DNA of 64,000 bases from a virus: positions 25,767 to 89,766 of IMG/VR virus record IMGVR_UViG_3300034355_001150; one strand, written 5' to 3'. The notes below the pieces were generated by a model, which worked only from the letters and a program-made list of their open reading frames with translations, did no database searches and had not been told where the DNA came from. A program made the position numbers and the translations under genes. Positions 22,801-58,612 of the stretch are shown here, one piece after another (the first letter of the stretch is position 1; each line of letters opens with the position of its first letter).

Positions 22801-25383
22801 ACCGGCAATGGTGTTGCTGCCAATACTCGCGTCACATCAGTAATTCAATCTACCATGAATGCCACAGTGAGTGGCACCACGCTAACTGTTAATTCGTATT
22901 CCGGCAATGATCCTGTTGTTGGTATGTATATGAATTTCAATGGCGCAAATCCTGGTGTTTGGATTGCAAATAATATCAGCGGCAATGGCGTCGGCTCAAC
23001 GTGGCAATTAAGTTCGGCTGTTACAGCCGCAACGTACACCAATACGGTCGGTAGAATTTGGACAGTAGAACCATCACAAACCACAAGCAATGTCACACTA
23101 ACCGGTGTTGCATACTCATTGAATAATTCACTTAATGCCAATGTAGGTAACATCAGCAATGTCGTCGTAACATCTGGACAAGGTGCTCTTTCTGTTGCCA
23201 TCGGTTATCAAGCCGGCGCGAATACACAAGGTAATATTGCTGTCGCTATCGGTTACCGAACTGCTGCTACTTTACAAAGTCAAGGTGCTGTTGCTATTGG
23301 GCAAGATGCTGGTAGCAATAGACAATCGTCGTCGGCAGTTGCCATTGGCACAAATGCTGGATCAAATACACAAGGACAAAACTCTGTTGCCGTCGGCCCA
23401 AGTGCTGGTTTATCTGGTCAGGCTCAAAACGCGGTTGCAGTAGGTGTCATCGCAGGCTCTACCGGACAAGGAGCACAATGTGTTGCTGTTGGCTATTACG
23501 CCGGTGCCACCACTCAAGGAACATCGGCAGTTGCTATTGGTCAATCTGCTGGGCAAACCACTCAGGGCACAAACGCGGTTGCTATCGGTATTAACGCTGG
23601 TAGTGGTTCTCAAGGAACACAAGCGGTTGCTGTCGGTCAATCTGCTGGGCAGACTACTCAAGGTGTAAGCGCGGTTGCTGTTGGTGTTAACGCAGGCTCT
23701 ACCGGACAAGGAGCGCAATGTGTTGCTGTTGGTGTTAACGCTGGTCTGTCCACTCAAGGAACACAGTCGGTTGCAATCGGCGCTGGCGCTGGTCAAACAA
23801 CACAGGGAACACAATCGGTTGCTGTTGGCGGAGCTGCTGGTCAATCCTTACAAAAAAATAACACGGTAGCAGTTGGGTATTTCGCTGGCCAAATATCACA
23901 ATGGGCTAATAGTACAGCATTGGGTCATTACGCTGGTCAACATTCTCAACGACCCGGTGCCGTCGCCATTGGTGCACAAGCAGGAATGGGCATTCAAGGA
24001 GCATTTACCAACTCTGGTACTATTGCTGGAAATGTATTCTCGATTGCCGGTAATGCCGCCAACGTGTCTGGTACTTTTGCAGTGGGTCAAACACTATTCG
24101 GAACTAATGTCCCAAATGATACCTACATCACTGCTTTGGGAACCGGCACCGGTAATGCTGGCACTTACTTCCTAAACACCAATACTGGCAATATTGTTGC
24201 CAATACTCAAGTATGGGCATACACAGGACAAGGTAATAGTGCCATCGCTATCGGCAATATTGCTGCCCCGTATAATCAAGGCGGAAACGCTATCGCCATT
24301 GGTAATTCGGTTGCACGATTCAATCAAGGCAACGCTGCTATTGCTATTGGTAATAATACTGCCAACAGCCAAGGAACAGGCTCTATTGCTATTGGTTCAA
24401 ATGCTGTTGCTAATGCACAATTTGCAAACTCTATCGTAATCAATGCTTCTGGTAATGCAATCGTAGCATCAAACGTGGGATTGTATATCAATCCTGTGAG
24501 AAATGATCTCGGAAATCTTGCTAATGCGGTTTATTACAATACATCAACAAGAGAACTAACCTATGGTCCATCATCTCTTGCATCAACCGATTACATCCAC
24601 GTTGTTCGCACTACCATCCAATCATGGAACTCGACAAATGCTGCTGTATTATTTAATTCAACAGTAGCCACTAATAGTAGTATACCATATAACTCAAGCA
24701 CTGGTGTGTTCACACTATCAGCCAACAAAACCTATCGCTTAACTGCTGGTATTCCGTTAGACGCAGCGGGTGGATATAATTCCTACCAATGGCAATATAG
24801 TGGCAACACTACTCCTATCAGCACAGCCACAGGAATGGCCGCTACTACTTCTTATGGAGCAAGCACCATCGAAGTGATATTTACATCAACCACTGATACT
24901 ACTGTAGCATTGAAAAGCCTCATGTCGTCGGGTAGTACCATATACGGTGGCGCATGGGCGGTTGTTCAACAAATTGGCGCAAGTGCGGTAACAAATAATC
25001 TTACCATTACTGGTGGATTATTTGCCAATACTATCGGAGGCACTGCTGCTAATGCCGGTATGGCTTTCAGCAACTACAAAGATGTAGTAAATAGCCCCGC
25101 CTTCGTTGCCTCGTATGCTCCCGATGTCAGCACTGGTTCAGTATTCAGAATGACATTGACCAACAACATCACTATCAATGGTTTTGGCGGTACTCCACAA
25201 GCTGGTCAAAGTGCAACATTGATCTTGACACAAGATGCAACGGGCAATAGGACTTTAAGTTCAACCATGAAGTTTGCTGGTGGCAACAAAACTCTCAGCA
25301 CAGCAGCAAATGCGATAGATATGTTATTCATCTTCTATGATGGCACAACATATTATGCAAGTCTGACAAAGGGGTATCAATAA
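16885..25383 (+). CDS. Giant tail-fibre protein (2832 aa)
   Basis: The largest gene here. The N-terminus (EIQLRRDTSNNWIAINPLLA then QGEIGIDLTT) is the virion-attachment segment found in many phage fibres and tropism determinants. Residues about 410-590 are heptad-like repeats NTNANVANTDSNVANI, probably a trimeric coiled coil. About 1350-1560 are NISGNNLSISNNVAITGN repeats. Four blocks of AVAIGxxAGxxxQG YadA-head-like repeats lie near 1170-1245, 1610-1900, 2100-2360 and 2450-2520, separated by beta-rich inserts. The C-terminus (about 2560-2832) contains a jelly-roll-like domain and a short domain ending YYASLTKGYQ. Probably a long homotrimeric host-recognition fibre; the stop overlaps the lectin start. 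Function is inferred. Confidence 0.88.
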   Translation: MASEIQLRRDTSNNWIAINPLLAQGEIGIDLTTNQIKIGTGVDNWVDLPYFGGGNGTGGYGNSNVEAFLASARVSNIIPDGNAIYSLGNATNQWKDLWISSNTIYMNTIPISLTNTNDLTVNGNPVVTANSAANGATNVNAISVSGNLSAQEATIANTTISNGNITANYFIGDGSLLTGLPAGYANSDAANYFASGNVTTNVITSGNIAAGYFIGDGSQLTGLPAGYANSNVADYFASGNVTTDVITSGNVTANYFLGNIAFASGGYSNTDVAAYLANNTGGEIVSNVIVSNTVTTTDIIANGEISTTGVVISNGNITIGETLTSNSVVSNIFVGGDFSGDGGNLSNIQYSSIVGAYGDSNVALYLESGNLSTEIVSTNSITAAQFFGDGYNLSNLNLANATGGYGNSDVANYLPTDSTIIAINSNIANTDANVANIIVDIANTNANVANTDSNVANIIVDIANTNSNVANIVIDIANTNANVANTDSNVANIIVDIANTNSNVANTDSNVANIVLNIANTNANVANTDSNVANIILSIANTNANVTNVSANVANTDSNVANIIVDIANTNSNVANTDSNVANNASNILTLQGQVYSNVNAAAYLANANTQGTIYSGDLTIGAGNTLAFAEGGSVDSVTAAGFEGTLTINGKANRGISVTAGGTVPGASYSQLQWVEDIANYDPYGAPNSITNWVYVQNDGIYLQNIDTLNSPGYDYLWKFAVDGNLTSPGNIINDGDIYANAYYGDGGFLSNITSSYQDANVVALLQSGNISTPIVTTNAITGNTVTSTSTITAVDANIANTVIANLFIGDFQGNISGNLSVPGANTQVLFNDNDVAGADVGFTYDSATKTATVGNTVAAVNVVTSGQVFSTGNITSNSTVIANTLSVGANSIAIVDNLIKTASQTITIDPIGDGSAAGNVVIQGNLQVTGNLTYVDVSTAVTSNLLWQAANSANSQSEASGGGLAVGPGNTAYATWTYNSGGNSWVSNLPIKATGGANIAGPLTGATTGSFANTVTAGAFSGNGAALTSITGAAVTGQVSNAIIAGTVYTAAQPNITSVGNLTSLVVSGTANAVDINASGNIAVTGNLSVNHVVAAGNLSVSGTLTGNNANFSNTVTAAYFSGDGSNLVNVPIASRLANGTSNVSIPIANGNITMAVNGTPIVNLSSTSIAIGAGINTIQQVSGAVAVGDGAGASNQQANAIAIGVGAGAASQGNNAVAIGAGSGGTNQAENSVAIGSRAHASNAAIVLNASGTIQNGQNAGFYVNPVRNDQSNIAQAVTYNVTSKEITYSNTINLAGNISGGNLNSIGIANVVGNINSGSWLNANGANIQGNVIVYDTVNSGGVSTGVLATSGNASIGNNITVASNAVVTGNISGNNLSISNNVAIAGNETIGGNATVTGNISGNNLSISNNVAITGNETITGNTVVTGNISGNNLSISNNVAITGNTVVTGNISGNNLSITGNETITGNTVVTGNISGNNLSISNSVAVTGNTVVTGNISGNNLSISNSVAVTGNTVVTGNISGNNLSISNNVAITGNETITGNTVVTGNITGNNFIGNSMAITGNISANNFIGNLANGTTNVSIMGTNGNITMTVAGTPSFTLNNNSIAIGNSAALTSQGVSAIAIGTSAGRTSQGNSTVAVGQSAGNSSQGIAAVAVGFQAGFTSQSTNAVAIGSYAGNVTQGVNAIAVGVGSGANTQGSNSVAIGAFAGNISQGTSAVAIGLNAGTNAQGAGTIAIGNQAGNSSQSTSAIAVGQLAGSNAQGIAAVAVGFQAGFTGQSTNAIAIGSYAGNSTQATSGIAIGTNSGANTQSANSIAIGTNAANNTQGINSVALGASAASNVQLANAVAIGTQAGNNMQQTNSIAMGTQAANINQGTNSVAIGTEAAGLSARYTANNIMFANSTMSVFGTQSGNITTTLLVAGNGVAANTRVSAVNTTINPNSTITGTTLTVKGTVQIAYLDNDYVVTGNGVAANTRVTSVIQSTMNATVSGTTLTVNSYSGNDPVVGMYMNFNGANPGVWIANNISGNGVGSTWQLSSAVTAATYTNTVGRIWTVEPSQTTSNVTLTGVAYSLNNSLNANVGNISNVVVTSGQGALSVAIGYQAGANTQGNIAVAIGYRTAATLQSQGAVAIGQDAGSNRQSSSAVAIGTNAGSNTQGQNSVAVGPSAGLSGQAQNAVAVGVIAGSTGQGAQCVAVGYYAGATTQGTSAVAIGQSAGQTTQGTNAVAIGINAGSGSQGTQAVAVGQSAGQTTQGVSAVAVGVNAGSTGQGAQCVAVGVNAGLSTQGTQSVAIGAGAGQTTQGTQSVAVGGAAGQSLQKNNTVAVGYFAGQISQWANSTALGHYAGQHSQRPGAVAIGAQAGMGIQGAFTNSGTIAGNVFSIAGNAANVSGTFAVGQTLFGTNVPNDTYITALGTGTGNAGTYFLNTNTGNIVANTQVWAYTGQGNSAIAIGNIAAPYNQGGNAIAIGNSVARFNQGNAAIAIGNNTANSQGTGSIAIGSNAVANAQFANSIVINASGNAIVASNVGLYINPVRNDLGNLANAVYYNTSTRELTYGPSSLASTDYIHVVRTTIQSWNSTNAAVLFNSTVATNSSIPYNSSTGVFTLSANKTYRLTAGIPLDAAGGYNSYQWQYSGNTTPISTATGMAATTSYGASTIEVIFTSTTDTTVALKSLMSSGSTIYGGAWAVVQQIGASAVTNNLTITGGLFANTIGGTAANAGMAFSNYKDVVNSPAFVASYAPDVSTGSVFRMTLTNNITINGFGGTPQAGQSATLILTQDATGNRTLSSTMKFAGGNKTLSTAANAIDMLFIFYDGTTYYASLTKGYQ

Positions 25384-42937: not shown

Positions 42938-42965
42938 ATTATACAGTAAAATTTTAGATTGTCAA
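42938..42965 (-). promoter_or_regulatory. Sigma70-like promoter
   Basis: TTGACA, 16 bp, TATAAT on the minus strand, overlapping the end of methyltransferase copy 1 and driving the two small genes. AATTAGTGTGATTAT at its edge recurs at 45.96 kb. Confidence 0.85.
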
Positions 42966-43870
42966 CAACTGCTCTCAATTAGCTCAATTTCTTCTTTGGT
43001 CAGATTAAAATGATTGTACAATTGCTGATTGGACCAGCTTCTTGTCAAGTCAAGTTTAGGAAAAACATTCAAGTTTTTCGTTTCATTATATTGAGTATGG
43101 CGATATACGCGAGAAAAAAATTTATACAGATTGCTATTAAACACTGTTTTTGCGTGTTCAACACTTTCTTCTTCTTTCAAGAGCATTGTTTGGCACCATC
43201 CTACACCATAATGTCCATCATCAATGATTACTTTTGTGGGTCCATTGTAGGGAATAACCACTTTCTTTTTTGATTTTAACGGTGATTCAATTTCACTCCA
43301 TCTTACAGGAATTCCAGAATCGTTTAAGTAATCCTTGCTAGAATTAACATGATGTATGTTTGCGTGTATGGCGTTCGCCGTTTTATTATCGGTATGATAG
43401 CCTGTTCCTTTATATTGATGATTTATGCCAGCTAAGAAAAAATTACAACGTGGTTCGGACGATTCTGTTAGCTTTTTTATAATAGTCAGCCCTTTGTTTG
43501 TAATTAGCTTGGTTTTCCTTAAATCAACTACATGAACACCATCATTGCAATTTATCTCAGATTTACCTTGATATTGATTTTTTTGTACAATAGTGTAGCC
43601 AAACGTAGAGGAAACATTAAAGTAATTTTTAATTCTATCCGATATGTCAGCGTATATCAGATTGTATTCTGAAAACACTCTCTCAATGATTTTTCCATTA
43701 TCGCTCGGAGAACACCAACCAGTTGGCGTAATTAAGCAAGTATATCCATTTTCTGCTGTGATGTCAACCGATAGCGTTAAAAACTCTTTCCACAGAGATT
43801 TGTTAGTTTGTCTTCCGTTTTTGGCGAGTTGTTTGAATGGTGGATTACCTACCACTATGTCAAATTTCAT
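42962..43870 (-). CDS. N6-adenine methyltransferase paralogue 1, short form lacking SAM domain
   Basis: A 302-aa protein beginning MKFDIVVGNPPF; NPPF is catalytic motif IV of N6-adenine (gamma-type) DNA methyltransferases. The SAM-binding motif I, which in the long copies precedes it by about 70 residues, is absent, so the protein is either a partner subunit or a store of sequence. The middle (about 60-260) differs from all other copies and should hold the target-recognition part. The C-terminus SWSNQQLYNHFNLTKEEIEL is shared with copy 5. ATG 43870 is preferred over the TTG one codon earlier. It lies 12 bases after copy 2. Confidence 0.75.
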   Translation of the reverse strand: MKFDIVVGNPPFKQLAKNGRQTNKSLWKEFLTLSVDITAENGYTCLITPTGWCSPSDNGKIIERVFSEYNLIYADISDRIKNYFNVSSTFGYTIVQKNQYQGKSEINCNDGVHVVDLRKTKLITNKGLTIIKKLTESSEPRCNFFLAGINHQYKGTGYHTDNKTANAIHANIHHVNSSKDYLNDSGIPVRWSEIESPLKSKKKVVIPYNGPTKVIIDDGHYGVGWCQTMLLKEEESVEHAKTVFNSNLYKFFSRVYRHTQYNETKNLNVFPKLDLTRSWSNQQLYNHFNLTKEEIELIESSC

Positions 43871-43882
43871 CAACCAATATTC

Positions 43883-44980
43883 TCAATAGTAATTTGGCAT
43901 AGCGTTTATTACGTCGCGCTCTTCTTGTGTGAATCCATAGAAGTCTTGTATTGAATCTTCAGTCCAAATTCTATCCAATGGCGGTAGTGGTACATTTTCA
44001 AAATATCGCTTAATAAACAAATGCTGTGATACCTTGTATATCACCAAGCCATATCTAGCCACCTTTGTTTTCAAATAAGATTTTAAGCTATCTTTTTCTT
44101 CGTCTGTGTTAATGACCAAACATTTAGCGCCATCTTTCAAGACATCAATTTTACTGTTCCTGTAGAAAAAAGTAAAATAATCATCAGTATTAAAATGTCC
44201 ACATATTTGAGGTAACGCAATAAATGGTCGGTTGGGTCGATCTGAAGATATATCATTCAAACACTTTTCTTTCGTTAATTCTTTGTATCTATTTACGAGA
44301 CTCAAAACAACGTCACTTGGTTCCCAAAACCCCGTAGGCAAATCAGAAATGTCTTTTATATAATATTTATTATCTGATTCTTTGTAATGCAATTTAATGT
44401 TATCTTGGTTGTTCTTTATAGCATATGTTACGCATAGATAGCAACTGAATAGGCCCTTTCCAAATAACTCGTTGCCATCCATAAATGTTAATTGTTTAAG
44501 TCTTCCCTTTAGCTCTCTTCTGACTTCTTTTTCTATAGAAGAATTGCCTCGATATGTCCACCCCGATGGGTGAATCAAGCAAACAATATCAGCTATCTGC
44601 AAACATTTCAATAAAAAATCTAAGTGGGTATTTTTTAAATAAGGTGGATTGCCCACCACTATGTCAAATTTCATATCTGTTTCCCATGTCAAAAAGTCGG
44701 CTCTGATTACGTTCTTGAATCGGCCATGCAACATCATGCGATTAGTTGCCCATATTGCCTTATCAAGAACGTATATGCGATTATTTATGTAGTCATTGTC
44801 AAAGCCTAATTTTCGCATTCTTCTTACAATCACTTTTGACTCGGTTCCATAGCCACAGGCAACATTCAGTATCTTAATATCTGGATTTAAAAATACCTCG
44901 TCGGGTATTTGGTCAATGATTTCTGTCCACAATTCAATACTATCTGGATCACCTAAAAAGCAATTGCCGCCGTATCCCAT
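43883..44980 (-). CDS. N6-adenine DNA methyltransferase paralogue 2, long form
   Basis: A 365-aa protein. The N-terminal 114 residues carry KILNVACGYGTE (motif I, SAM binding, about 37-47), the VLDKAIWATN acidic strand, and DMKFDIVVGNPPY (motif IV at 111-114), and are nearly identical in DNA to copy 5. After NPPY the sequence diverges completely (LKNTHLDFLLKCLQIADIVC), giving a different putative target-recognition region, then a C-terminal IWTEDSIQDFYGFTQEERDV segment. Expected product: N6-methyladenine in phage DNA at a specific site. It is preceded by an AGGAATTTTA leader. Confidence 0.85.
   Translation of the reverse strand: MGYGGNCFLGDPDSIELWTEIIDQIPDEVFLNPDIKILNVACGYGTESKVIVRRMRKLGFDNDYINNRIYVLDKAIWATNRMMLHGRFKNVIRADFLTWETDMKFDIVVGNPPYLKNTHLDFLLKCLQIADIVCLIHPSGWTYRGNSSIEKEVRRELKGRLKQLTFMDGNELFGKGLFSCYLCVTYAIKNNQDNIKLHYKESDNKYYIKDISDLPTGFWEPSDVVLSLVNRYKELTKEKCLNDISSDRPNRPFIALPQICGHFNTDDYFTFFYRNSKIDVLKDGAKCLVINTDEEKDSLKSYLKTKVARYGLVIYKVSQHLFIKRYFENVPLPPLDRIWTEDSIQDFYGFTQEERDVINAMPNYY
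44639..44980 (-). repeat. 342-bp direct repeat, copy A (shared methyltransferase N-terminal half)
   Basis: Matches 48239-48580 at an offset of exactly 3600 bp. Positions 44639-44820 are identical and the remaining 160 bp have about 18 differences. Identity stops abruptly just past the NPPY codons. Large enough for homologous recombination. Confidence 0.95.
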
Positions 44981-45048
44981 TAAAATTCCTCCATAGATTA
45001 ATTGTTGTTAATAACTGTTCTCATTTGTTTTAGGTCATGTCAAGTCTT

Positions 45049-45864
45049 TTACGAGGTTTCTTTTTTTCTAACAAGTACATCTAAGATGTATTCTTGCTCC
45101 GTGGCGGAGATATTGAACAATGAGAATAATTCTGAATCATTCATATTAATTCCGGAAATTTTTGGCATCCTTGCTAAATTTCTATAGCTCACTTGCGCTG
45201 CATTGGCAAAAGAATATACACAAAATCTACCAAGAAGTGATTTGGATAAATACCAAGAGTTAAGGTGAGCTTCCGTCTCCGAATCCATCTTTAAAAACAT
45301 ACCTCTGCCATTCTCAATTATTCCTTCGTTTGTATGATTCACTCTTGAAATAACTGACTTTTTTCCACCCTTTGGTTTTGTGTGACAAAAACGAATATAT
45401 GCAGAATCAACAAAAACATAATCTTTTGCAATCTCGTTTCGTGATAGAAACAATTTTTCTCCCGAGGAGTTAAACACTTTGTCTATTATGGATGCCCCCA
45501 CAATGTTTGTGGCCTGTATGGGTAACGCCTTTTGCATATCCCAATCAATGTGCGATTCCGAGAAGATGACTTTTGTTGTTTTTGTAACCAATCCCAAAGA
45601 CTTTGAACCAATAAAACCAGCAATGTTTGTTCCAATTCCCGGAAAACTTTCATTCAGGTTGGCAAATACTGTTGTTAATGAAAATAAATTATGTATTATT
45701 TTAGCACTTTTAGACCCCGGATCTAAAAATCTATTGGGAACAACGAATGCAATCAATCCGTCTTCTGAAAGAACTTTTCCAGACTTTTCTATAAATTTTG
45801 TATAATACGAAGAATCACCGTCTATTTTATATGGCGGATTTCCAACCACAATGTCAAATTTCAT
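45049..45864 (-). CDS. N6-adenine methyltransferase paralogue 3, N-terminally truncated
   Basis: A 271-aa reading from the ATG of MKFDIVVGNPPYK. Upstream the frame stays open to 45957 and still encodes LDRTIWATN ... NVIRADFLTWETD, the counterpart of residues 72-102 of copies 2 and 5, then meets a stop. So about 70 N-terminal residues including motif I were lost, right where the AP2-like gene ends. After NPPY it has typical Eco57I/TaqI-like features (IAFVVPNRFLDPGSKSAKII and a C-terminal SYRNLARMPKISG). Either a short form like copies 1 and 4 or a decaying gene. A TTG start at 45918 is also possible. Confidence 0.7.
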   Translation of the reverse strand: MKFDIVVGNPPYKIDGDSSYYTKFIEKSGKVLSEDGLIAFVVPNRFLDPGSKSAKIIHNLFSLTTVFANLNESFPGIGTNIAGFIGSKSLGLVTKTTKVIFSESHIDWDMQKALPIQATNIVGASIIDKVFNSSGEKLFLSRNEIAKDYVFVDSAYIRFCHTKPKGGKKSVISRVNHTNEGIIENGRGMFLKMDSETEAHLNSWYLSKSLLGRFCVYSFANAAQVSYRNLARMPKISGINMNDSELFSLFNISATEQEYILDVLVRKKETS

Positions 45865-45956
45865 ATCTGTTTCCCATGTCAAAAAGTCGGCTCTGATGAC
45901 ATTATTGAACCCACCCAAAATACGTATCCGATTGGTAGCCCAAATGGTCCTATCTA

Positions 45957-45971
45957 ATTAGTGTGATTATT
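45957..45971. repeat. 15-bp promoter fragment repeated at a truncation point
   Basis: AATTAGTGTGATTAT at the junction where copy 3 loses its N-terminus also occurs at 42930-42944 beside the promoter of the small-gene pair. It looks like a recombination scar carrying part of a promoter region. Confidence 0.5.
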
Positions 45972-46581
45972 AATCTTCTAGGTTAAATAGATTTATAAAT
46001 TCCTGTGGGGTTAGATATTCTTTTGCCCTGATAACAACGTCGTTGCCATATTTGGCAAACAACGCCTTCCCGTCATATTTTTCGTATATCTGAGGCCATA
46101 GACCTTTATTATCGTTAACCGAACGAGTGGGAAAAGCGACGCGAATCTTTAATTTACTAGAAACCGTAACGTTACCTGCATTTCTCTTAATCGACTTGAG
46201 TTTGATATCCTTCAAAATTTTTGAAGCCTCTTCTTTGTCCAATCCACTGGGTGCATTGTATAGATCGCTGGGGAAATCAACCCAGCGTCCGTTCTCATGA
46301 ATCCAATAATCAACATTGATAGGATCAATTTTAAATAGCTCTGTTACATATGCCGCCTCTCTGGCATCTGCATAATATCCGCCGTGCCAAGAAGTTCTTT
46401 CTTGTGCATATAATTGTGAACGAATAGAGGTATCTGATGGATTGGCACATGCCGCAATAAATGGTTTGGATTCATCCAATGTCCAAGCAGTGGATAATGC
46501 GGCTCCGGTGTAACCCGACCTATTTGATTTTCTGGTTGACAGATGAATTTTTATGCCGGTGGAAAGAGTAATAGTGGTCAT
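45970..46581 (-). CDS. AP2-like DNA-binding protein inserted in the methyltransferase array
   Basis: A 203-aa protein. ATG 46581 follows GGAGACAAACA and is preferred over an upstream start that overlaps the promoter. Residues about 20-85 (GYTGAALSTAWTLDESKPFI ... HGGYYADAREAAYVTELF) resemble an AP2/ERF-like domain, which in phages is usually the DNA-binding part of homing endonucleases. The C-terminal half (KIRVAFPTRSVNDNKGLWPQ) contains no HNH or GIY motif that I can see. It has its own early promoter and sits at the broken end of copy 3, suggesting it arrived as a mobile gene. Confidence 0.5.
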   Translation of the reverse strand: MTTITLSTGIKIHLSTRKSNRSGYTGAALSTAWTLDESKPFIAACANPSDTSIRSQLYAQERTSWHGGYYADAREAAYVTELFKIDPINVDYWIHENGRWVDFPSDLYNAPSGLDKEEASKILKDIKLKSIKRNAGNVTVSSKLKIRVAFPTRSVNDNKGLWPQIYEKYDGKALFAKYGNDVVIRAKEYLTPQEFINLFNLED

Positions 46582-46635
46582 TGTTTGTCTCCTCGTTAAA
46601 ATTAAGACTTGAACGAACTTCAAATCATTGGGAGT

Positions 46636-46663
46636 ATTATACAGTAAAATTTTTACTTGTCAA
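46636..46663 (-). promoter_or_regulatory. Sigma70-like promoter of the AP2-like gene
   Basis: TTGACA, 16 bp, TATAAT on the minus strand, overlapping the last codons of copy 4 and 55 bp before the AP2-like gene. Confidence 0.85.
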
Positions 46664-47477
46664 CCTTTTTTACTCTACTCTCTATGAAATTTATCTCATC
46701 ATCGGACAGCAAGAAATGCTTATAAACATCGTTATTGGTCCACATTCTATCAGAATCTAACTTTGGTAACAAATTATTATTTTTTACCACTGGAGTAAAT
46801 CCAGCTGTTTTAAGATGGTTGTCGGCATAAAAGCGATATAAATTACTGTTGGTATATGATAAAATATTATTGCCCTCCTTTATGTTCGTTATAGGAAGAA
46901 TTTTATTAAATTTACAAGTGGGCGAATCGGTTATGAATTGCGAGGAGTAACTTGCGCTGAAAGGATAGACTATTTTGAGGCCGACATTATTTGGCTTTAA
47001 ATCTGTGTTCGTTTTGTTTTTGCCGCTATAATAAATCTCACAATCCCCTATGTTTAAATTCTCTTTTGTTATTTGCGGGTTCTCGTATATCAAAGATAAA
47101 AATTCCGCGCTATCTAACATTTTAGACACAATAGAGTCAATCATTGGATCTCTTAGTATTGGAAGCATAACCTTTTTGTGCTTTGAACTTCTCGTTACTA
47201 CCCAATGACATGTATTCACTCCAACTGAAAACCATTGTTTTTCTTTGTGTACAGAAGCATGAGTTAAAGTTAGTTGATTATTCAATCTATCCTTAAACCA
47301 CTTTCCCATACCGACCGTGTAATCAAAAATAGATGCAGGTGTTACGAATGCAACAAACCCGATGTCGGTAACTAGGGTGAGTGTTTTTTTCGCGAATTTA
47401 TGCCATAATTTATTATTTTTAGCTTTATTGTTGTTGTCCTGATAAGGTGGATTGCCCACCACTATGTCAAATTTCAT
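46653..47477 (-). CDS. N6-adenine methyltransferase paralogue 4, short form lacking SAM domain
   Basis: A 274-aa protein beginning MKFDIVVGNPPYQ, with motif IV but no motif I. The body (GFVAFVTPASIFDYTVGMGK, HWVVTRSSKHKK) is a third distinct variable region and the end RMWTNNDVYKHFLLSDDEIN is the shared C-terminal helix pair. Its ATG overlaps the stop of copy 5 (ATGA), so the short form is translated together with a full enzyme. It could work as a second specificity subunit using the SAM domain of copy 5. Confidence 0.75.
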   Translation of the reverse strand: MKFDIVVGNPPYQDNNNKAKNNKLWHKFAKKTLTLVTDIGFVAFVTPASIFDYTVGMGKWFKDRLNNQLTLTHASVHKEKQWFSVGVNTCHWVVTRSSKHKKVMLPILRDPMIDSIVSKMLDSAEFLSLIYENPQITKENLNIGDCEIYYSGKNKTNTDLKPNNVGLKIVYPFSASYSSQFITDSPTCKFNKILPITNIKEGNNILSYTNSNLYRFYADNHLKTAGFTPVVKNNNLLPKLDSDRMWTNNDVYKHFLLSDDEINFIESRVKKVDK

Positions 47478-48580
47478 TGACCAATTTTCTCAATTAGCTC
47501 AATTTCTTTGTTAGTCAGATTAAAATGATTATACAATTCTACGTCGGACCACGCCATGTTGGTGTCAACCATCGGTAATGATTGCAAAATTCCGGTACTC
47601 GATTGCCCTGCCTCTCCGCCAAGTATTTTAAACACGTAGCAAAACAACTTGCTATTGAATATTGTTTTATAATTTGCAAGATTTTTTGTATCAGCTATCA
47701 CCATAGTTTGTGCAGAATGATTAGTGTCCGACGAACGACCGATAAAAAGTTTATCGTATTTTTTGAATCGTCCTCCGTTTATCTTAACCACCAAATCAGA
47801 TTCCTTCGACTTATCGCATTCTGTAAATTTCCATTTCTTGGAGGAATATGTTTTGTTCAATATACTTAGATTATCTGGAGTAACATCAAACGGAATAGGA
47901 CAGGAAGCATCTACATCGCAGTAAGTAGAATCATTATTATTTAAGATAAGACATTGTCCAACATAATTTTTGGACATAACAAATGCACTTATGCGAATAC
48001 CAACATTGAAATGATGCGAAACATCCGGGTATATTCCGATGAATTTAAAATTATTTTTATAAATAAATGTTATCTTGTTTGTTTCCTTGCCAAAATTTGA
48101 TATAGAAAAAATTGAAGTGGGAACTATCATTGCTATAGTTGTATTTTCGCTTGACAATTCAACGGCTTTTGTCAAAAAAGCCCACCAAAAGCCTCCTTGT
48201 TTATTGTTCTTGCATTTTATAGCTGCGGTCGATGCCTGATAAGGTGGATTGCCCACCACTATGTCAAATTTCATATCTGTTTCCCATGTCAAAAAGTCGG
48301 CTCTGATTACGTTCTTGAATCGGCCATGCAACATCATGCGATTAGTTGCCCATATTGCCTTATCAAGAACGTATATGCGATTATTTATGTAGTCATTGTC
48401 AAAGCCTAATTTTCGCATTCGGCGAACGATCACTTTTGACTCGGTTCCATAGCCACAGGCAACATTCAGTATCTTAATATCTGGATTTAGAAATACCTCA
48501 TCGGGTATTTTGTCAATGATTTCTGTCCACAATTCCTCGCTATCGGGATCACCCAAGAAGCAATTACCACCATATCCCAT
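47474..48580 (-). CDS. N6-adenine DNA methyltransferase paralogue 5, long form
   Basis: A 368-aa protein with motif I (KILNVACGYGTE, about 37-47) and motif IV NPPY at 111-114 in an N-terminal half nearly identical to copy 2. The variable region is different (QASTAAIKCKNNKQGGFWWA and on) and the C-terminus (MAWSDVELYNHFNLTNKEIE) is close to copy 1. The start shares a base with the stop of the helicase C-terminal ORF, placing it in one operon with the helicase. Predicted N6-adenine methylation; the target site is unknown. Confidence 0.85.
   Translation of the reverse strand: MGYGGNCFLGDPDSEELWTEIIDKIPDEVFLNPDIKILNVACGYGTESKVIVRRMRKLGFDNDYINNRIYVLDKAIWATNRMMLHGRFKNVIRADFLTWETDMKFDIVVGNPPYQASTAAIKCKNNKQGGFWWAFLTKAVELSSENTTIAMIVPTSIFSISNFGKETNKITFIYKNNFKFIGIYPDVSHHFNVGIRISAFVMSKNYVGQCLILNNNDSTYCDVDASCPIPFDVTPDNLSILNKTYSSKKWKFTECDKSKESDLVVKINGGRFKKYDKLFIGRSSDTNHSAQTMVIADTKNLANYKTIFNSKLFCYVFKILGGEAGQSSTGILQSLPMVDTNMAWSDVELYNHFNLTNKEIELIEKIGQ
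48239..48580 (-). repeat. 342-bp direct repeat, copy B
   Basis: Second copy of the repeat described at 44639-44980. A shorter 34-bp piece of it (starting at AAGGTGGATTGCCCACC) also begins copy 4 near 47443, and a diverged version begins copy 1 near 43848. Confidence 0.95.
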
Positions 48581-49935
48581 TACACATCTCCAAAACAGAA
48601 ATCATTGATTAAATTGTTGTATTTTTTAGTATTCTGGACAACCACGTCTAATATCGGCTCATTCAGAATTCCCTTATCTAAGATCATCAAAGCTATCTCA
48701 ATATCAATTCCGACAAAATCATAAAATTCTTCGGATGATTGCGCAGAGTAAATAATGTTCTCCAAACACTCTTTGTACGTTTCTCCGCTTGGATATAGAT
48801 AATGAACATTTCTCGCAGACCGATTTATCGTCTTGATGGCCTCATTTATTATCGTCTCAATATCTTTATCACTTTTGCGATTTTTCGGCCTTTTGCCATC
48901 TGTTTCAGTTACATAATTTTTAACAGCATCAATTGCATTTTTGCCTTGATGTCCTGGTCCAGCAATACGATTCGCGTTTTCAAGATGTTCAACGATGTCA
49001 CGTGCCAAATCAATATTTACAGTAACATCGGCCACCCGAAGTAGATTTTCATTATCATTCAGAATGGTGAACATTTCAGATTCAGTTACCTCAACCGCCG
49101 TTCCATACTTCACTCTAAAACAATCTATGCTTGATAAAACAAAGCGAGTCGCGGTTGGAAAATCCATCCCTTCGCTTTTATGAACCTGCATGATCTCTTC
49201 TACTAATAGCTTTTCTATATTTTCAGAACGATTTGGGTCAAAGCTAAGATCAACAATGTGTCCATACTCTTTTGATTCACCAGAGAATGTGTTACCCGGT
49301 GTCAAACAACGACTTACTTTTTGAATAGTAGTATCTACCGATCCTCTATCATAAGCAATAACTGATGCTTGAATTTCAGATATACTGTATGATCGTGAAC
49401 CCATCTGATTTGATATTATAATCAAACCATCCTTGCCAGCGATTTTTGCCTCGTTTATTTCCCGAATCGTTTCTGATTCTGCTTCTTTGTTGCTGGTAAA
49501 ATCACCGTTTAATATTTTGATATGATAATTAGGGATAGCCCTGATAGCGATATCTTTAATCTGCCGCATTTCCTTGTTGTTGGCACTCACCAACAACATA
49601 AAGCAATCAACAGATTCGCCGGTCAAATTGCTCAAGTTCAATTCTTGTCGTAGAGGTTCTTCTCCGATAAAACTCTTGAATAATTTTGTGATAAACGATT
49701 TATTTCCATTGGGTTTTCCCCATATTTTTGCCCAAGAAGGCTGAACTTCTGGCTCAAGCGATTCTATATCATGCTTGAGTGTATCTACTTCCAACATGAA
49801 GAATTTTCGTTTTATAATACTTTCTTCGGATTGCTCTAATTGACTATAAGCGGTATAAATAACCCCATCAACTTTTGGCGCACCTTTGGCCAATCTCTGG
49901 ATGTTGGTTCCAGAGGCATATATTTTTATTAGCAT
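48580..49935 (-). CDS. SF2 helicase, C-terminal half of a split gene
   Basis: A 451-aa protein starting MLIKIYASGTNIQRL. SGT at 8-10 is a helicase motif III, IISNQMGSRSYSI (173-185) is motif V-like and DTTIQKVSRCLTPG (201-214) is motif VI. It therefore contains the second RecA-like lobe plus a helical tail. It lies in the same reading frame as the ORF upstream, separated by a 27-bp stretch with three stops, so the two once formed, or together form, one helicase. The ribosome site before this ATG is poor. Confidence 0.75.
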   Translation of the reverse strand: MLIKIYASGTNIQRLAKGAPKVDGVIYTAYSQLEQSEESIIKRKFFMLEVDTLKHDIESLEPEVQPSWAKIWGKPNGNKSFITKLFKSFIGEEPLRQELNLSNLTGESVDCFMLLVSANNKEMRQIKDIAIRAIPNYHIKILNGDFTSNKEAESETIREINEAKIAGKDGLIIISNQMGSRSYSISEIQASVIAYDRGSVDTTIQKVSRCLTPGNTFSGESKEYGHIVDLSFDPNRSENIEKLLVEEIMQVHKSEGMDFPTATRFVLSSIDCFRVKYGTAVEVTESEMFTILNDNENLLRVADVTVNIDLARDIVEHLENANRIAGPGHQGKNAIDAVKNYVTETDGKRPKNRKSDKDIETIINEAIKTINRSARNVHYLYPSGETYKECLENIIYSAQSSEEFYDFVGIDIEIALMILDKGILNEPILDVVVQNTKKYNNLINDFCFGDV

Positions 49936-49959
49936 AGTTCATTTTGGTGTTTATTGATT

Positions 49960-50784
49960 TCATGAAAACAAAAAATCTACTTTTTTAATTTGATTGTCGG
50001 TATGAGTGCCGAAATCTCCCTCGTCGGCGAAAACAAATATATCGTCATTTTTCAAATCTGATATCCATTGATGTTTTTCGCACCATTCATCATAATCTCC
50101 GTGAAGTGAGATAGGAACAACTACTCGTTGACCATTAGATAAAGCATTTTCAACTTTGAATGAGGCATCGTCGTCATTGCAATCAATCAATGCAATGTCC
50201 AAAAAATCATCATAGTCCGATAATGCATTTATGAATGATGAATGCACACTGAGCCAATACGCTGGCAACAGCATAATTCTATTGTTGTATCTTTCGCAAA
50301 CAGCATTAAATAGCATCAGTGACCATATTGTTTTGCCAAATCTCGGGCATAAATTTGCGGCAATCGTTGGCGAATGATCGGTTTTATCTATTATTTCTAA
50401 TGCGTCATTTAATGCTTTTTGTTGTAAGTCACGAAGTACAACCTTGTTTCTTACTCGTTTTCCCTCCATGGATTCAACCAAGTCATCAATGTAACGATGA
50501 GCGTCATCAATAGAGGTACCGGGAATTTTAAACCATTCGGTTCCTGCACCATCTTTGTGGTGCAATCCTTTCCTGGTCAATACTTTATGAACTTCGTAAT
50601 CACGCTTGATATTCTGAAGATTATTCCATGAGCCTACTCGGATTTTTGCTTCATACTCTGATGCACCTCCCTGTTCTGCTATTCTAACGTCAACATCACG
50701 AATACTATCGCCCACTTTGGCCAAAATAAACCCATCATACTTGCATAATGCCGAAGGATAAGTGTACGCATATAAATTGATCAT
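49960..50784 (-). CDS. GIY-YIG/T5orf172-like domain fused to SF2 helicase N-terminal lobe
   Basis: A 274-aa protein. ATG 50784 follows GGGGAGAG and starts five bases after the methylase stop; an earlier start would overlap. Residues about 5-100 (FILAKVGDSIRDVDVRIAEQ ... EVHKVLTRKGLHHKDG ... TEWFKI) match the T5orf172 type of GIY-YIG-like domain that is often fused to helicases and restriction enzymes. Then come the Walker A PRFGKT (147-152) and Walker B/DEAD-like box FADEGDFG (252-259). It ends at VDFLFS, just before motif III, which is in the next ORF. Together with the methyltransferases it looks like restriction-modification-type machinery. Confidence 0.75.
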   Translation of the reverse strand: MINLYAYTYPSALCKYDGFILAKVGDSIRDVDVRIAEQGGASEYEAKIRVGSWNNLQNIKRDYEVHKVLTRKGLHHKDGAGTEWFKIPGTSIDDAHRYIDDLVESMEGKRVRNKVVLRDLQQKALNDALEIIDKTDHSPTIAANLCPRFGKTIWSLMLFNAVCERYNNRIMLLPAYWLSVHSSFINALSDYDDFLDIALIDCNDDDASFKVENALSNGQRVVVPISLHGDYDEWCEKHQWISDLKNDDIFVFADEGDFGTHTDNQIKKVDFLFS

Positions 50785-50789
50785 GCTGC

Positions 50790-51266
50790 TCACTCTCCCC
50801 AATTATCAAATAGCGTGTGTTTATGTAATTCATCATCGTTAAAGTTTGTTCCATTGAACTCATATCCATAGGTTAAACCATCATGGCATACTATGTTCTT
50901 CTCAACAATGTGAGAATATTCTGATTTACCACATAATAAACGCTCTCTGCACAGAGTAACATTATCTTGCATAATATCAACGCCAAAAACTGTACTCAGG
51001 GCTTGTTTAAACCCATGACCGTTCTCTAGCTTACGAATAAGAACTTCGCTTAAAAATTGCCCATCGCCGCAACTTGGATCAAGAAATGTTTTAGTTGGAT
51101 CCGTAAATGAATCTTTTGGTAATAGGTCCAATATCTCTTGCACCAATGGCGTGGGTGTGAAGCACTCCCCTGTGCTTTTTATGCGGGACATTTCTCGAAC
51201 AGTCCCGGACATGAATTCTCTATCGCGCATATGCGATATAGCTGATTGTAATTCTTCTTTCGTCAT
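50790..51266 (-). CDS. Small N6-methylase-like protein (SAM-binding module)
   Basis: A 158-aa protein. GECFTPTPLVQEIL is the motif X region and TFLDPSCGDGQFLSEVLI is motif I of the HsdM/N-6 adenine methylase family, with VFGVDIMQDNV as the acidic strand. It stops before any NPPY motif, so it is only the SAM-binding half. This is complementary to the short methyltransferase copies, which have NPPY but no motif I. First gene of the operon; the promoter is unclear (TTGAGG, 15 bp, TATAAT). Confidence 0.75.
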   Translation of the reverse strand: MTKEELQSAISHMRDREFMSGTVREMSRIKSTGECFTPTPLVQEILDLLPKDSFTDPTKTFLDPSCGDGQFLSEVLIRKLENGHGFKQALSTVFGVDIMQDNVTLCRERLLCGKSEYSHIVEKNIVCHDGLTYGYEFNGTNFNDDELHKHTLFDNWGE

Positions 51267-55883: not shown

Positions 55884-56696
55884 TTATTCTCCGTTAAAAA
55901 TTATTTTTGTCAATAAGTCTATGCCATCTATGGCATTCATTTGCATAGATATATCTTGTTTGCGTGATATATCCGGTTCATATAGGTTTATCCTAATCAA
56001 TTTGCTGGTTCTTTCTGCACCAAACCATCTAATAGATGGGATAGTTTTACCAGCCCCTATCTCAATTCCGACAATGTTTTTCTTATCAGATTCCCATTCG
56101 GTATATGATCTTTGTTGTTCGTCCACCCGATTGAAACAAAAAGCAGGATCATTGAACATCATTACTTTTGGTCTCAAATAGCTACCGCAATTTGGGCAGG
56201 TTGGTATATCTTTTTCGCTGGTCAGTACATCAGTAAAATTCGGCATAGGCCAATCTTCGCGTGTGCATTGATCAACACATTGAATATATCGCAAATTACC
56301 GTGAATTTCAAGCAATTTGTTTGAATCATATCCAGCCTTTAAAAAGTGACCATCAACATTGGATGTTACCGAGAATATATCCTTTCCTAATTCTTTAAGC
56401 CTCAGTAATTGTACATATCCCTTATGAGGAGTTAATGACATTCCGGTTATCAATCTGGTAATATAAAAGTTCCATGCTTCCAAAGGATGAATGGCAAATG
56501 CGTCGGCTGTAGCAAATTTCATGAAATTACTTTGCTCACTTGTCCATATTCCATCTTTTCCCCTAAAGTCCGGTATTCCAGAATCAACGCTCATACCCGC
56601 CCCAGATAGAATAACAATCCCATCTGCTTCATCAATCATCTTTTTGATTTGATTATCCAGCACAGCTTTCGCATTCTCCTTTACTAGCTTGAACAC
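55884..56696 (-). CDS. Sir2-family NAD-dependent protein deacylase (sirtuin)
   Basis: A 270-aa reading. Family motifs: VILSGAGMSVDSGIPDFRG (NAD binding), SNVDGHF (113-118 area), catalytic His132 in LLEIHGNL, Zn cysteines Cys140/Cys144 and Cys167/Cys170, and IEIGAGKTIPSIR in place of the usual GTSLxVxPA. Sirtuins remove acyl groups from lysines while consuming NAD. The GTG start at 56696 overlaps the RNR gene by 44 bases; a GTG at 56663 (after AAGGAG) or ATG at 56639 are alternatives that keep the motifs. It is co-transcribed with nrdA. In a phage it may act on host proteins or NAD metabolism. Confidence 0.88.
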   Translation of the reverse strand: MFKLVKENAKAVLDNQIKKMIDEADGIVILSGAGMSVDSGIPDFRGKDGIWTSEQSNFMKFATADAFAIHPLEAWNFYITRLITGMSLTPHKGYVQLLRLKELGKDIFSVTSNVDGHFLKAGYDSNKLLEIHGNLRYIQCVDQCTREDWPMPNFTDVLTSEKDIPTCPNCGSYLRPKVMMFNDPAFCFNRVDEQQRSYTEWESDKKNIVGIEIGAGKTIPSIRWFGAERTSKLIRINLYEPDISRKQDISMQMNAIDGIDLLTKIIFNGE

Positions 56697-57648
56697 CCGA
56701 TTCTGATCTAATATAATACAATGATTTAATCAACGGATCATTAAATGCCATCTGATGAACTTCTGAGATATATTCTTCTGATTCATCTGACGAGAAAAAT
56801 AGATTGATGGATTGCGCTTGGTCTATAAATTGCTGTCTTACTGAAGCTAATCTTATAATGACCTTTTGATCAATTTCAAATGCCGTTTTAAATACTTTTT
56901 TCTCTTCTTCGTTTAACCATTCAACATCTTGCACCGAGCCATTATGATTGATTACTTCGTTGATGTGCTTATCATCATAAATTCCTTTTTCCTTCAACAG
57001 TTCCAAAAATACCGGATTGATTCTGTTCATTTCTCCAGCAGCAGAACCTTGTACGTAGACATTTTTATAAACGGGTTCAATTCCCTGTGATACGCCTCCC
57101 ATAATTCCGGCTGTTGATAGCGTTGGTGCAACAGCCAATAGATGAGAATTTCTACGATTATATCCTCTGCACCATTCTGGTTCGCCAAATGCTTCTGCCA
57201 TCCATCGTGTTGCCTTTTCTGATTCTTCTTTAATTTTTTTGAAGATTTCTGCATTCTTAAAGTGAGCTTCTATTGATTCAAACGGAATCATATTTAATTG
57301 CAAATAGGTATGAAATCCCATTACGCCAAGTCCTAATGCTCTTGACTTTTCCGTGAACCTGACTGCTTTTTCTAAACCTTTTATTTTTTTACCAATAGAA
57401 ATAAACTCAGATGCGACACAGTCTAAGAATACAGAAGAAACAAAAATAGTATCGGTATCTTTCCATTCATCATACTTAGCTAAATTCAACGAAGATAATA
57501 CGCATGTATAGGTATGTTCATCATCGGAGAACAACGTGATCTCTGTGCAATTATGAACCAAAATGTCGTTTCCGAAGAAGTTATTATTGTCTTCTACTGT
57601 TATATCATAAACATCTTCTAGATAGTCAACCTCTTCAATTAATAGCAT
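56653..57648 (-). CDS. nrdA: Class I ribonucleotide reductase large subunit, C-terminal part with C-intein
   Basis: A 331-aa protein. Residues 1-33 are the C-terminal half of a split intein (block F VYDITVEDNNNFFGNDI, block G LVHN), followed by Cys34, the +1 residue, and the C-extein CTEITLFSDDEHTYTC. NLC-TEI is the RNR segment carrying the thiyl-radical cysteine, so the intein splice residue is the catalytic Cys itself. The rest includes the barrel strands and a C-terminal GECESCAG with the redox Cys pair. AAGAGG stands six bases before ATG. After trans-splicing with the N-part the enzyme would be about 564 aa, shorter than T4 or E. coli NrdA, which have an extra N-terminal ATP cone. Confidence 0.92.
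   Translation of the reverse strand: MLLIEEVDYLEDVYDITVEDNNNFFGNDILVHNCTEITLFSDDEHTYTCVLSSLNLAKYDEWKDTDTIFVSSVFLDCVASEFISIGKKIKGLEKAVRFTEKSRALGLGVMGFHTYLQLNMIPFESIEAHFKNAEIFKKIKEESEKATRWMAEAFGEPEWCRGYNRRNSHLLAVAPTLSTAGIMGGVSQGIEPVYKNVYVQGSAAGEMNRINPVFLELLKEKGIYDDKHINEVINHNGSVQDVEWLNEEEKKVFKTAFEIDQKVIIRLASVRQQFIDQAQSINLFFSSDESEEYISEVHQMAFNDPLIKSLYYIRSESGVQASKGECESCAG
57550..57648 (-). other. Split-intein C-half (33 aa)
   Basis: Encodes LEDVYDITVEDNNNFFGNDI and LVHN; His32-Asn33 are the splice-junction pair, and Cys34 begins the extein. The length is typical of natural C-inteins. Confidence 0.9.
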
Positions 57649-58612
57649 CTAATACCTCTTTAACATTAATTTTGTTTCTCATTTTGTTATACCTATTGTA
57701 TTCTAAATTTAACTCTTTACAAACCGGCGAAATCAAATTGTTTTTAACATCACCATTAAACCTAAACCCACTTTTAGCACCGCCGCCGAGATTTGGAAAT
57801 TTTCTAAATTTGTGTTTTTCATCCCAAATCAACTTAATCAATTTTAATCCTGGCAATTCATTAAATTGGTATTTTTCGGCAATCACAGACGCAACCTTTA
57901 CGTAAAAATCATAGATTTCATCATCGGTTATTCCGCTGTATTTTGGGTTATTTGTTCCGGTTGTCTGATCATCTTTATTTGAAGCAGATACCCAATCTTC
58001 AATATTGTCCAAATCGTTCTTATTGCAATATCTTCCTTCTCCGGTTTTTTTATTATAAAATTTGTGTTTATTCTTTGAATGATGAACCCATTCACCCGAA
58101 ACGACTTTTGGGTGATTTTTTTCAACTGATCCAACTATTTCTCCGGTTAATACATCTTTTACTGGAAAAGTTCCTTTTCTTGATATTGATATTCTGTGTT
58201 TTCCTTCTTTTGTTTGCCACCCGTTAGTTTTACGAAAACTCGAAGAATTTTGCCTCATCCATGCATAAGAATTTCGTATTTTTCTATTTAAACAGGTTTT
58301 AATATTTTTCAATTTCTTTTTGCTGTTAAACCCGTTTATAACAAACTTAATAGCAATAAAATCACATCGTTCACCATAAGCTTTATATCTTATTAAATGC
58401 GCAAACAAATGTTCTTCTGGCAAAAGCGTAACTATATTATCTATGTTATTTGAACCCCCAACACTTTTTGGAATTATATGATGCCCCTCGACATATAATT
58501 CTAAATTATTTACTATTCGTAAATCTTTGGGGTTTCGTTTCCTTAACCGAGCAAAAGGGGTTGTTCTTTGACAATAATTGATAAATGTTTCATATAATTT
58601 AATATAATTCAT
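57635..58612 (-). CDS. HNH homing endonuclease between the split-intein halves
   Basis: A 325-aa protein. The HNH core is ELYVEGHHIIPKSVGGSNNI with TLLPEEHLFAHLI (His/Asn/His). A NUMOD-like DNA-binding unit follows (FPVKDVLTGEIVG ... HPKVVSGEWVHHSKN), matching the 32-aa repeats of the endonuclease at 15-16 kb, and a C-terminal basic region. It is a free-standing gene exactly between the two parts of nrdA and overlaps the C-part start by 14 bases. It should cut intein-less nrdA alleles and spread the fractured-gene arrangement. Its leader contains a hairpin with an internal late promoter. Confidence 0.85.
   Translation of the reverse strand: MNYIKLYETFINYCQRTTPFARLRKRNPKDLRIVNNLELYVEGHHIIPKSVGGSNNIDNIVTLLPEEHLFAHLIRYKAYGERCDFIAIKFVINGFNSKKKLKNIKTCLNRKIRNSYAWMRQNSSSFRKTNGWQTKEGKHRISISRKGTFPVKDVLTGEIVGSVEKNHPKVVSGEWVHHSKNKHKFYNKKTGEGRYCNKNDLDNIEDWVSASNKDDQTTGTNNPKYSGITDDEIYDFYVKVASVIAEKYQFNELPGLKLIKLIWDEKHKFRKFPNLGGGAKSGFRFNGDVKNNLISPVCKELNLEYNRYNKMRNKINVKEVLDAIN

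Follow-up and report, generated by a model that had tools for sequence, protein, structure and literature searches.

Type ISP restriction-modification enzymes, exemplified by LlaGI and LlaBIII, are single polypeptides in which a nuclease, a helicase, a gamma-class adenine methyltransferase with an NPPY motif and a target-recognition domain (TRD) follow one another. A locus with the same order of motor, adenine methyltransferase and TRD is described here from a window of 64,000 nucleotides, positions 25767-89766 of the 89,766-bp virus record IMGVR_UViG_3300034355_001150, which is itself an incomplete fragment. On the minus strand of this window, five Eco57I-type adenine methyltransferase open reading frames (ORFs) lie head to tail from 48580 to 42962 (Table 1). 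Superfamily 2 (SF2) translocase motifs are present, and the methyltransferases, matched by Pfam Eco57I, carry NPPY and a TRD and share the fold of CamA, M.TaqI and BrxX. In contrast to the Type ISP enzymes, the parts are divided in this phage among a split helicase (HelN and HelC), methyltransferase subunits (M) and a subunit that binds S-adenosylmethionine (SAM; subunit S). In addition, there are several M copies per motor, and the nuclease domain is different and uncertain.

Other described systems share single aspects of this locus. In switchable Type I hsdS loci (PMC7394358; SpnIV tvr, PMC6265443), duplicated specificity parts likewise recombine at conserved segments; in the portions of these accounts consulted, a separate HsdS is exchanged, commonly through inverted repeats, whereas whole methyltransferase/TRD halves and direct repeats are involved here, in a phage. 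TRD sequences also change position in the domain movement of Helicobacter pylori, described in the consulted part of PMC3077401 for bacterial specificity subunits, while a tandem methyltransferase array with S and a motor is the feature here. In phage P1, the methylase-helicase pair DarB has a known antirestriction role; its EcoKI/TaqI-like methylase is joined to an SF2 motor. According to the consulted parts of that account (PMC5512222), which describe neither a TRD array nor a separate SAM subunit, the methyltransferase precedes the helicase in one fused virion protein, whereas separate HelN and HelC precede M here. The permuted methylases of Aeromonas phages (PHROG 11371) and genes of cyanophages S-CAM7 and ACG-2014f contain NPPY-TRD and S halves, fused or as neighbours; these are single copies, with no tandem TRD array in the stretches read. 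Orphan Eco57I adenine methyltransferases of phages share the domain found in all five ORFs and differ in that a motor and S are linked to it here. Taken singly, the exchange of TRDs, Type ISP enzymes and methylases of phages are already known. The open-licence literature searched yielded no phage array in which methyltransferase/TRD cassettes share a motor and a SAM subunit and are exchanged at NPPY.

Each of the five array ORFs matches Pfam Eco57I above the curated cut-off, in agreement with the original prediction, made from the sequence alone, of five paralogous adenine methyltransferases in tandem. That prediction extended the array to 51266; it ends at 48580, the remainder being S, HelN and HelC upstream of M1, and it is interrupted by a 217-amino-acid (217-aa) ORF that had no Pfam or PHROG match and matched only itself among 2,611 ORFs. 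The predicted shared repeat encoding the SAM half is present as two direct copies that are 94.8% identical (18 mismatches); its length is 344 bp rather than 342 bp, the final base being the last of the NPPY codons. Two ORFs had been said to start exactly at the MKFD codons. Both N2 and N5 lack the SAM half and are of the NPPY-start type, which opens with MKFDIVVGNPP; N2 starts as predicted and N5 one codon earlier. The copy called truncated, N3, indeed retains only about the last 25 codons of the SAM half, with likeness reaching approximately 45942. The middles of the five ORFs are as different as claimed (25-32% amino acid identity to one another). A second methyltransferase array occurs in the same record outside the window (record 176-1791), and its ORF at record 952-176 has only 21 codons ahead of MKFD.

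Table 1 Features of the methyltransferase array and its module (window coordinates; TRD, recognition half).
Feature	Coordinates	Strand	Description
S	50790..51266	-	158-aa SAM-binding subunit encoded on its own; motif I DPSCGDGQF; overlap with start of HelN
HelN	49960..50802	-	Weak T5orf172-like N-terminal domain and first SF2 helicase domain (RFGKTIW, DEGD)
HelC	48580..49935	-	451 aa; second helicase domain (QKVSRCLTP motif); stop overlaps M1 ATG
M1	47474..48580	-	368 aa; SAM half (residues 1-102), MKFDIVVGNPPY and TRD; Pfam Eco57I 51.2 bits
N2	46653..47477	-	274 aa; NPPY-start methyltransferase/TRD half; starts at MKFD codon; ATGA overlap with M1 stop
217-aa ORF	45970..46623	-	Interrupts array; function not assigned by Pfam/PHROG
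N3	45049..45918	-	289 aa; methyltransferase with 5'-truncated SAM half
M4	43883..44980	-	365 aa; SAM half, NPPY and TRD
N5	42962..43873	-	303 aa; NPPY-start methyltransferase/TRD half; starts one codon before MKFD
Repeat copy A (SAM half to NPPY)	48239..48582	-	182 bp (48239-48420) shared exactly with copy B
Repeat copy B (SAM half to NPPY)	44639..44982	-	Partner of copy A
Sigma70-type promoter TTGACA-16-TATAAT, perfect	46636..46663	-	Upstream of 217-aa ORF, N3, M4 and N5; consensus match only

The three upstream ORFs belong with the array. S matches Pfam N6_Mtase (29.5 bits, cut-off 20.4) over residues 29-121, which is the SAM-binding half only, and also matches phrog_21201, phrog_4376 and the second part of phrog_11371. 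PHROG 11371 contains both halves in one protein, the first part resembling the NPPY-TRD part of M4 and the second resembling S, and Aeromonas phages Aeh1 and PX29 carry this TRD-S fusion. It follows that S and the NPPY-TRD half naturally belong to a single enzyme. The SF2 motifs are divided between HelN, in which the GKT and DE columns are invariant (alignment of 14 sequences), and HelC, in which the QK.SR..T columns are invariant (10 sequences). HelN and HelC are separate ORFs in the window; in three related loci (L069, L023 and L076; L numbers are our labels for related loci) they are fused with an N-type ORF. Searches of HelN and HelC against PDB sequence profiles returned nothing meaningful, and PADLOC and NCBIfam gave only generic methylase matches for M and S. 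S, HelN and HelC are linked to M both here and in the majority of 60 loci from a wider survey, and HelN, HelC, S and M form a larger module that contains the array.

To follow the recognition halves across relatives, 130 instances of the motif pattern were compared, and pairs with SAM halves at least 72% identical were counted. Pairs with fewer than 150 nt before or 400 nt after the motif were dropped and duplicate contigs were kept; many of the resulting 152 pairs come from a single array or from repeats of a single contig. TRD identity in these pairs was at least 70% in 44, between 55 and 70% in none, and at most 55% in 108; the baseline for unrelated TRDs is 44.4% (standard deviation 1.9, maximum 53.0; 151 pairs). 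The TRDs of such pairs are thus either alike or unrelated. A different locus set contained one intermediate TRD group at 64.2% (L159 with L155 and L157).

Individual pairs place the breakpoints of these replacements. Contig 3300035190_001357 (L010) is identical to record 84346-74005 and again downstream of the event; between these, the M1 SAM half is fused to the M4 TRD and 3,600 bp of the array are lost, with a crossover inside the 182-bp stretch that is identical in both repeat copies. L035 and L046 are 96.9% identical until 2 nt past the NPPY codons, differ over approximately 790 bp (52.8%, at the top of the unrelated range), and are then 98% identical. L152 and L182 are 95.3% identical up to the NPPY codons of M1, carry different TRDs, and then return to 94%; L182 lacks the second M. 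L151 and L172 are 92% identical on either side of one whole M gene that only L172 contains, and the single TRD of L182 matches, at 68.9% identity, a TRD that stands third in L172 and so has another position. In L201, whose clamp loader is 73% identical to that of the record, three NPPY-start genes adjoin the clamp loader. These genes, N1, N2 and N3, are homologous to record 952-176, record 1791-949 and window M4, with amino acid identities of 48.5, 49.4 and 39.8% over 237, 178 and 269 columns, respectively. Record 1791-949 and window M4 have a SAM half that L201 N2 and N3 lack, the gene order differs, and one gene lies some 70 kb off along the record, in the other array. Finally, L204 carries the TRD of the fifth L098 gene (72.7% amino acid identity, 187 columns) behind a different N-terminal part. 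TRDs thus behave as cassettes: phages exchange, acquire or lose them, and the breakpoints fall at the NPPY codons. Recombination at shared segments that joins one SAM half to different TRDs, as originally predicted, is borne out by the L010 fusion and by the NPPY swaps in other phages. Gene conversion was also considered from the 182-bp identical run, which was matched in 1 of 200,000 shuffles when the 18 mismatches were treated singly and in 14,730 of 200,000 when clustered ones were merged to give 6 events; it is not claimed.

The module is widespread in uncultivated phages. Family searches relied on domain-limited hidden Markov models. The MKFD..GNPP pattern occurs in at least 118 IMG/VR stretches, and at least six other phages among the loci scanned have M copies in tandem, namely five in L098, three in L052 and L092, and two in L031/L078, L047 and L107. 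The tandem copies of L092 start at MKFD, and NPPY-start genes form tandem sets in L092, L199, L200 and L201. A second survey, guided by HelC and hence blind to M copy number, recovered 60 virus loci, duplicate contigs and contig ends included, in which the usual order is HelN-HelC-M-S. In these loci, M copies numbered 0 in 6, 1 in 43, 2 in 7, 3 in 2 and 5 in 2, the five-copy loci being L191 (the contig of L098) and L195. At L195 4097-7614, three M genes sit between HelN and HelC. Among cultured phages, S-CAM7 (MT586120) was the only match to HelC from the window and HelN from L098, near-identical DNA was not found in 50,697 cultured phage records, and more distant forms are carried by cyanophages and Aeromonas phages. 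In 84,980 bacterial and archaeal genomes, HelC and HelN patterns gave 99 and 179 stretches with no confirmed relative, a pattern-based result that does not prove absence. The statement of the original prediction that no phage system of this form is known holds only for systems that bear a name, given the tandem copies in other phages and the spread of the module.

Structural models suggest how the parts could work together. The predicted fold of M1 (predicted local distance difference test score, pLDDT, 78.3) matches CamA, M.TaqI, BrxX and MmeI. For L069, in which HelN, HelC and M form one chain of 1140 aa, the best Foldseek match is LlaBIII (E 4.5e-18), and VIA-align gives Z scores of 17.4 for LlaBIII over 598 residues (root mean square deviation, rmsd, 12.9) and 16.3 for LlaGI over 534 residues (rmsd 13.4), with the N-terminal domain barely covered by the comparison. 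Based on these models, we conclude that the M subunits probably work like the methyltransferase-TRD part of Type ISP enzymes, as separate proteins. The G.G motif is found in 80 of 84 S sequences, and an N-terminal part without it in 51 of 140 M ORFs, 36 of which have S in the locus; the motif is loose, duplicates are included, and a few of the 51 bear a GGQF-type motif that the pattern misses. Since S keeps G.G while these M ORFs lack it, some members of the family probably depend on S, acting in trans, to bind SAM.

From these observations, it is moderately probable that the array represents specificity subunits that can replace one another within a split, Type ISP-like system for modification and perhaps restriction, which the phage encodes and which homologous recombination has diversified. 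The array would then be a store of such subunits for a multi-polypeptide relative of Type ISP enzymes. HelN-HelC would act as a DNA-translocating motor, possibly with a T5orf172-type nuclease domain, each M or NPPY-start ORF would contribute catalytic motif IV and a TRD, and S would provide the SAM-binding half; most plausibly, it would complement in trans those M subunits that lack such a half or have lost motif I. Homologous recombination (deletion, duplication, gene conversion or exchange between phages) between SAM halves of near identity, and at the MKFD..GNPPY anchor of 12 codons, would join a conserved SAM half to different TRDs and so create new specificities. The product, whose enzymatic activity and coupling to the motor and nuclease we infer, would methylate phage DNA with several or changing specificities, which would protect it against host restriction and possibly help to attack unmarked DNA. 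A bolder version, which we hold only tentatively and consider rather doubtful, is a combinatorial viral modification-restriction machine in which a single motor-nuclease, together with a single SAM subunit, works with a large set of exchangeable catalytic/recognition subunits. Cassettes traded at the NPPY codons would change or stack specificity, and modification and restriction would shift together. If the split Type ISP-like reading is true, phages, besides bacteria, keep methyltransferase recognition domains as cassettes and trade them at an exact, naturally occurring exchange point within the catalytic domain. The array would then offer ready-made chimeras for asking how specificity depends on the TRD, a testable example of trans action by a SAM half, and a route by which phages match changing host restriction.

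Several observations count against the split Type ISP-like reading. The L069 model is weak (pLDDT 64.8), and Snf2h, a Snf2-type motor, leads the VIA field of helicases with a Z score of 18.7; the likeness to Type ISP enzymes therefore rests on the order of motor and methyltransferase. The first 115 residues of HelN score 18.2 bits against T5orf172 in the window, below the Pfam cut-off of 20 (20.0 in L087 and 19.7 in L100), other HelN clades match barely or not at all, and a T5orf172 search of the whole record gave no match. The C-terminal ends, predicted to be conserved, are so unevenly: the ORF starting at 48580 is 58.6% identical to that starting at 43873, about 38% to those at 47477 or 45918, and 6.7% to that at 44980, which leaves the exchange point at the 3' side less well defined than that at the 5' side. 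The array is unchanged in four of the five sets of near-identical contigs that have at least two M genes (L151/L186, L152/L153/L154, L172/L178 and L199/L200/L201), the window and L010 being the sole differing set. L010 itself may be a wrong collapse. The first 127 bp of the record repeat its positions 1767-1893 exactly (outside the window), which we read as a k-mer overlap of the assembly graph, and the 182-bp crossover stretch is longer than this.

The strongest alternative, to which we assign nearly an even chance, is a plain antirestriction repertoire, in which methyltransferases of different specificities protect phage DNA and the helicase only assists, as in DarB, with no restriction. Multiple methylases of jumbo phages have been proposed as a counter to several host systems (PMC7824862, in the part consulted), and the pairing of a TaqI/EcoKI-like methylase with an SF2 motor in DarB serves antirestriction (PMC5512222, likewise). 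The evidence for a nuclease here is weak. In contrast to DarB, in which the helicase follows the methyltransferase, the helicase precedes it here, as in Type ISP enzymes, and T5orf172 scores lie near the cut-off in three homologues.

We consider it improbable that the array is a decaying duplication cluster in which most copies are functionless remnants of unequal crossing-over. The 5'-truncated copy, the two copies without a SAM half and the short N-terminal part of record 952-176 would fit such decay. The five ORFs are nevertheless intact over 274-368 aa, S is present, and NPPY-start genes recur as tandem sets elsewhere, as listed above. Further, the ratio of nonsynonymous to synonymous substitution (dN/dS) in the SAM halves is 0.05-0.15 over 13 pairs (0.05-0.12 for the record copies and 0.06-0.15 for the five L098 copies), so these copies have been kept as protein-coding sequence. 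By the values for the record copies, the array is not a chance arrangement.

True phase variation, meaning frequent and reversible rearrangement inside one phage population, is similarly unlikely. The original prediction had suggested switching of this kind, and the two forms represented by the window and L010, with otherwise identical sequence, would be consistent with it. Unlike in phase-variable hsdS loci, the repeats are direct, which favours loss over reversal, methyltransferase and TRD lie in one ORF, and integrase and resolvase families (PF00589, PF00239) had no match in the 89.8-kb record, itself incomplete. Because of this result and the four unchanged contig sets, fast reversible switching is not supported; evolutionary cassette turnover fits better than switching within a population. 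In the comparison of relatives, which had been proposed as a check, copy number and order vary between phages, and near-identical sets are mostly constant.

Least likely is an assembly artefact, either a false array pieced together from strain variants or repeats, or a wrong collapse in L010. The k-mer-sized overlap at a repeat and the crossover in identical sequence would allow this. Against it, contigs of other phages contain arrays built in the same way (five copies in L098; three in L199, L200 and L201), and NPPY swap breakpoints lie in two pairs whose flanks differ by 2-8%. The exchange cases in L035/L046, L152/L182, L151/L172, L182, L201 and L204 are independent of L010.

If the overlap is read in this way, as a k-mer of the assembly graph, the record broke inside its second array. 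Contig 3300034355_001151 (L011) begins in the same repeat (99.2% over 133 bp) and continues to a PhoH gene and a gene read from its sequence as DnaJ-like. The L201 array lies between the clamp loader and a gene resembling this DnaJ-like gene, and L011 is thus probably the other side of the second array. The clamp loader of the record (record 2131-3057) is closest to that of the Pseudomonas PA5oct jumbo-phage group (51.6% amino acid identity), and the record is therefore likely part of a larger genome.

With respect to the promoter in Table 1, a second perfect TTGACA-16-TATAAT site lies on the minus strand at 42938-42965, just past the array; promoter-like sites across the array are no more numerous than in shuffled sequence (35 versus 35.0). 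Elsewhere in the window, reductase-like ORFs at 56653-58612 stand beside an HNH-like ORF, an arrangement that, read from the sequence, has the look of an intein or homing insertion. Finally, 16885-25383 and its neighbours contain very long ORFs (up to 2,832 aa) with many internal repeats, perhaps tail fibres.

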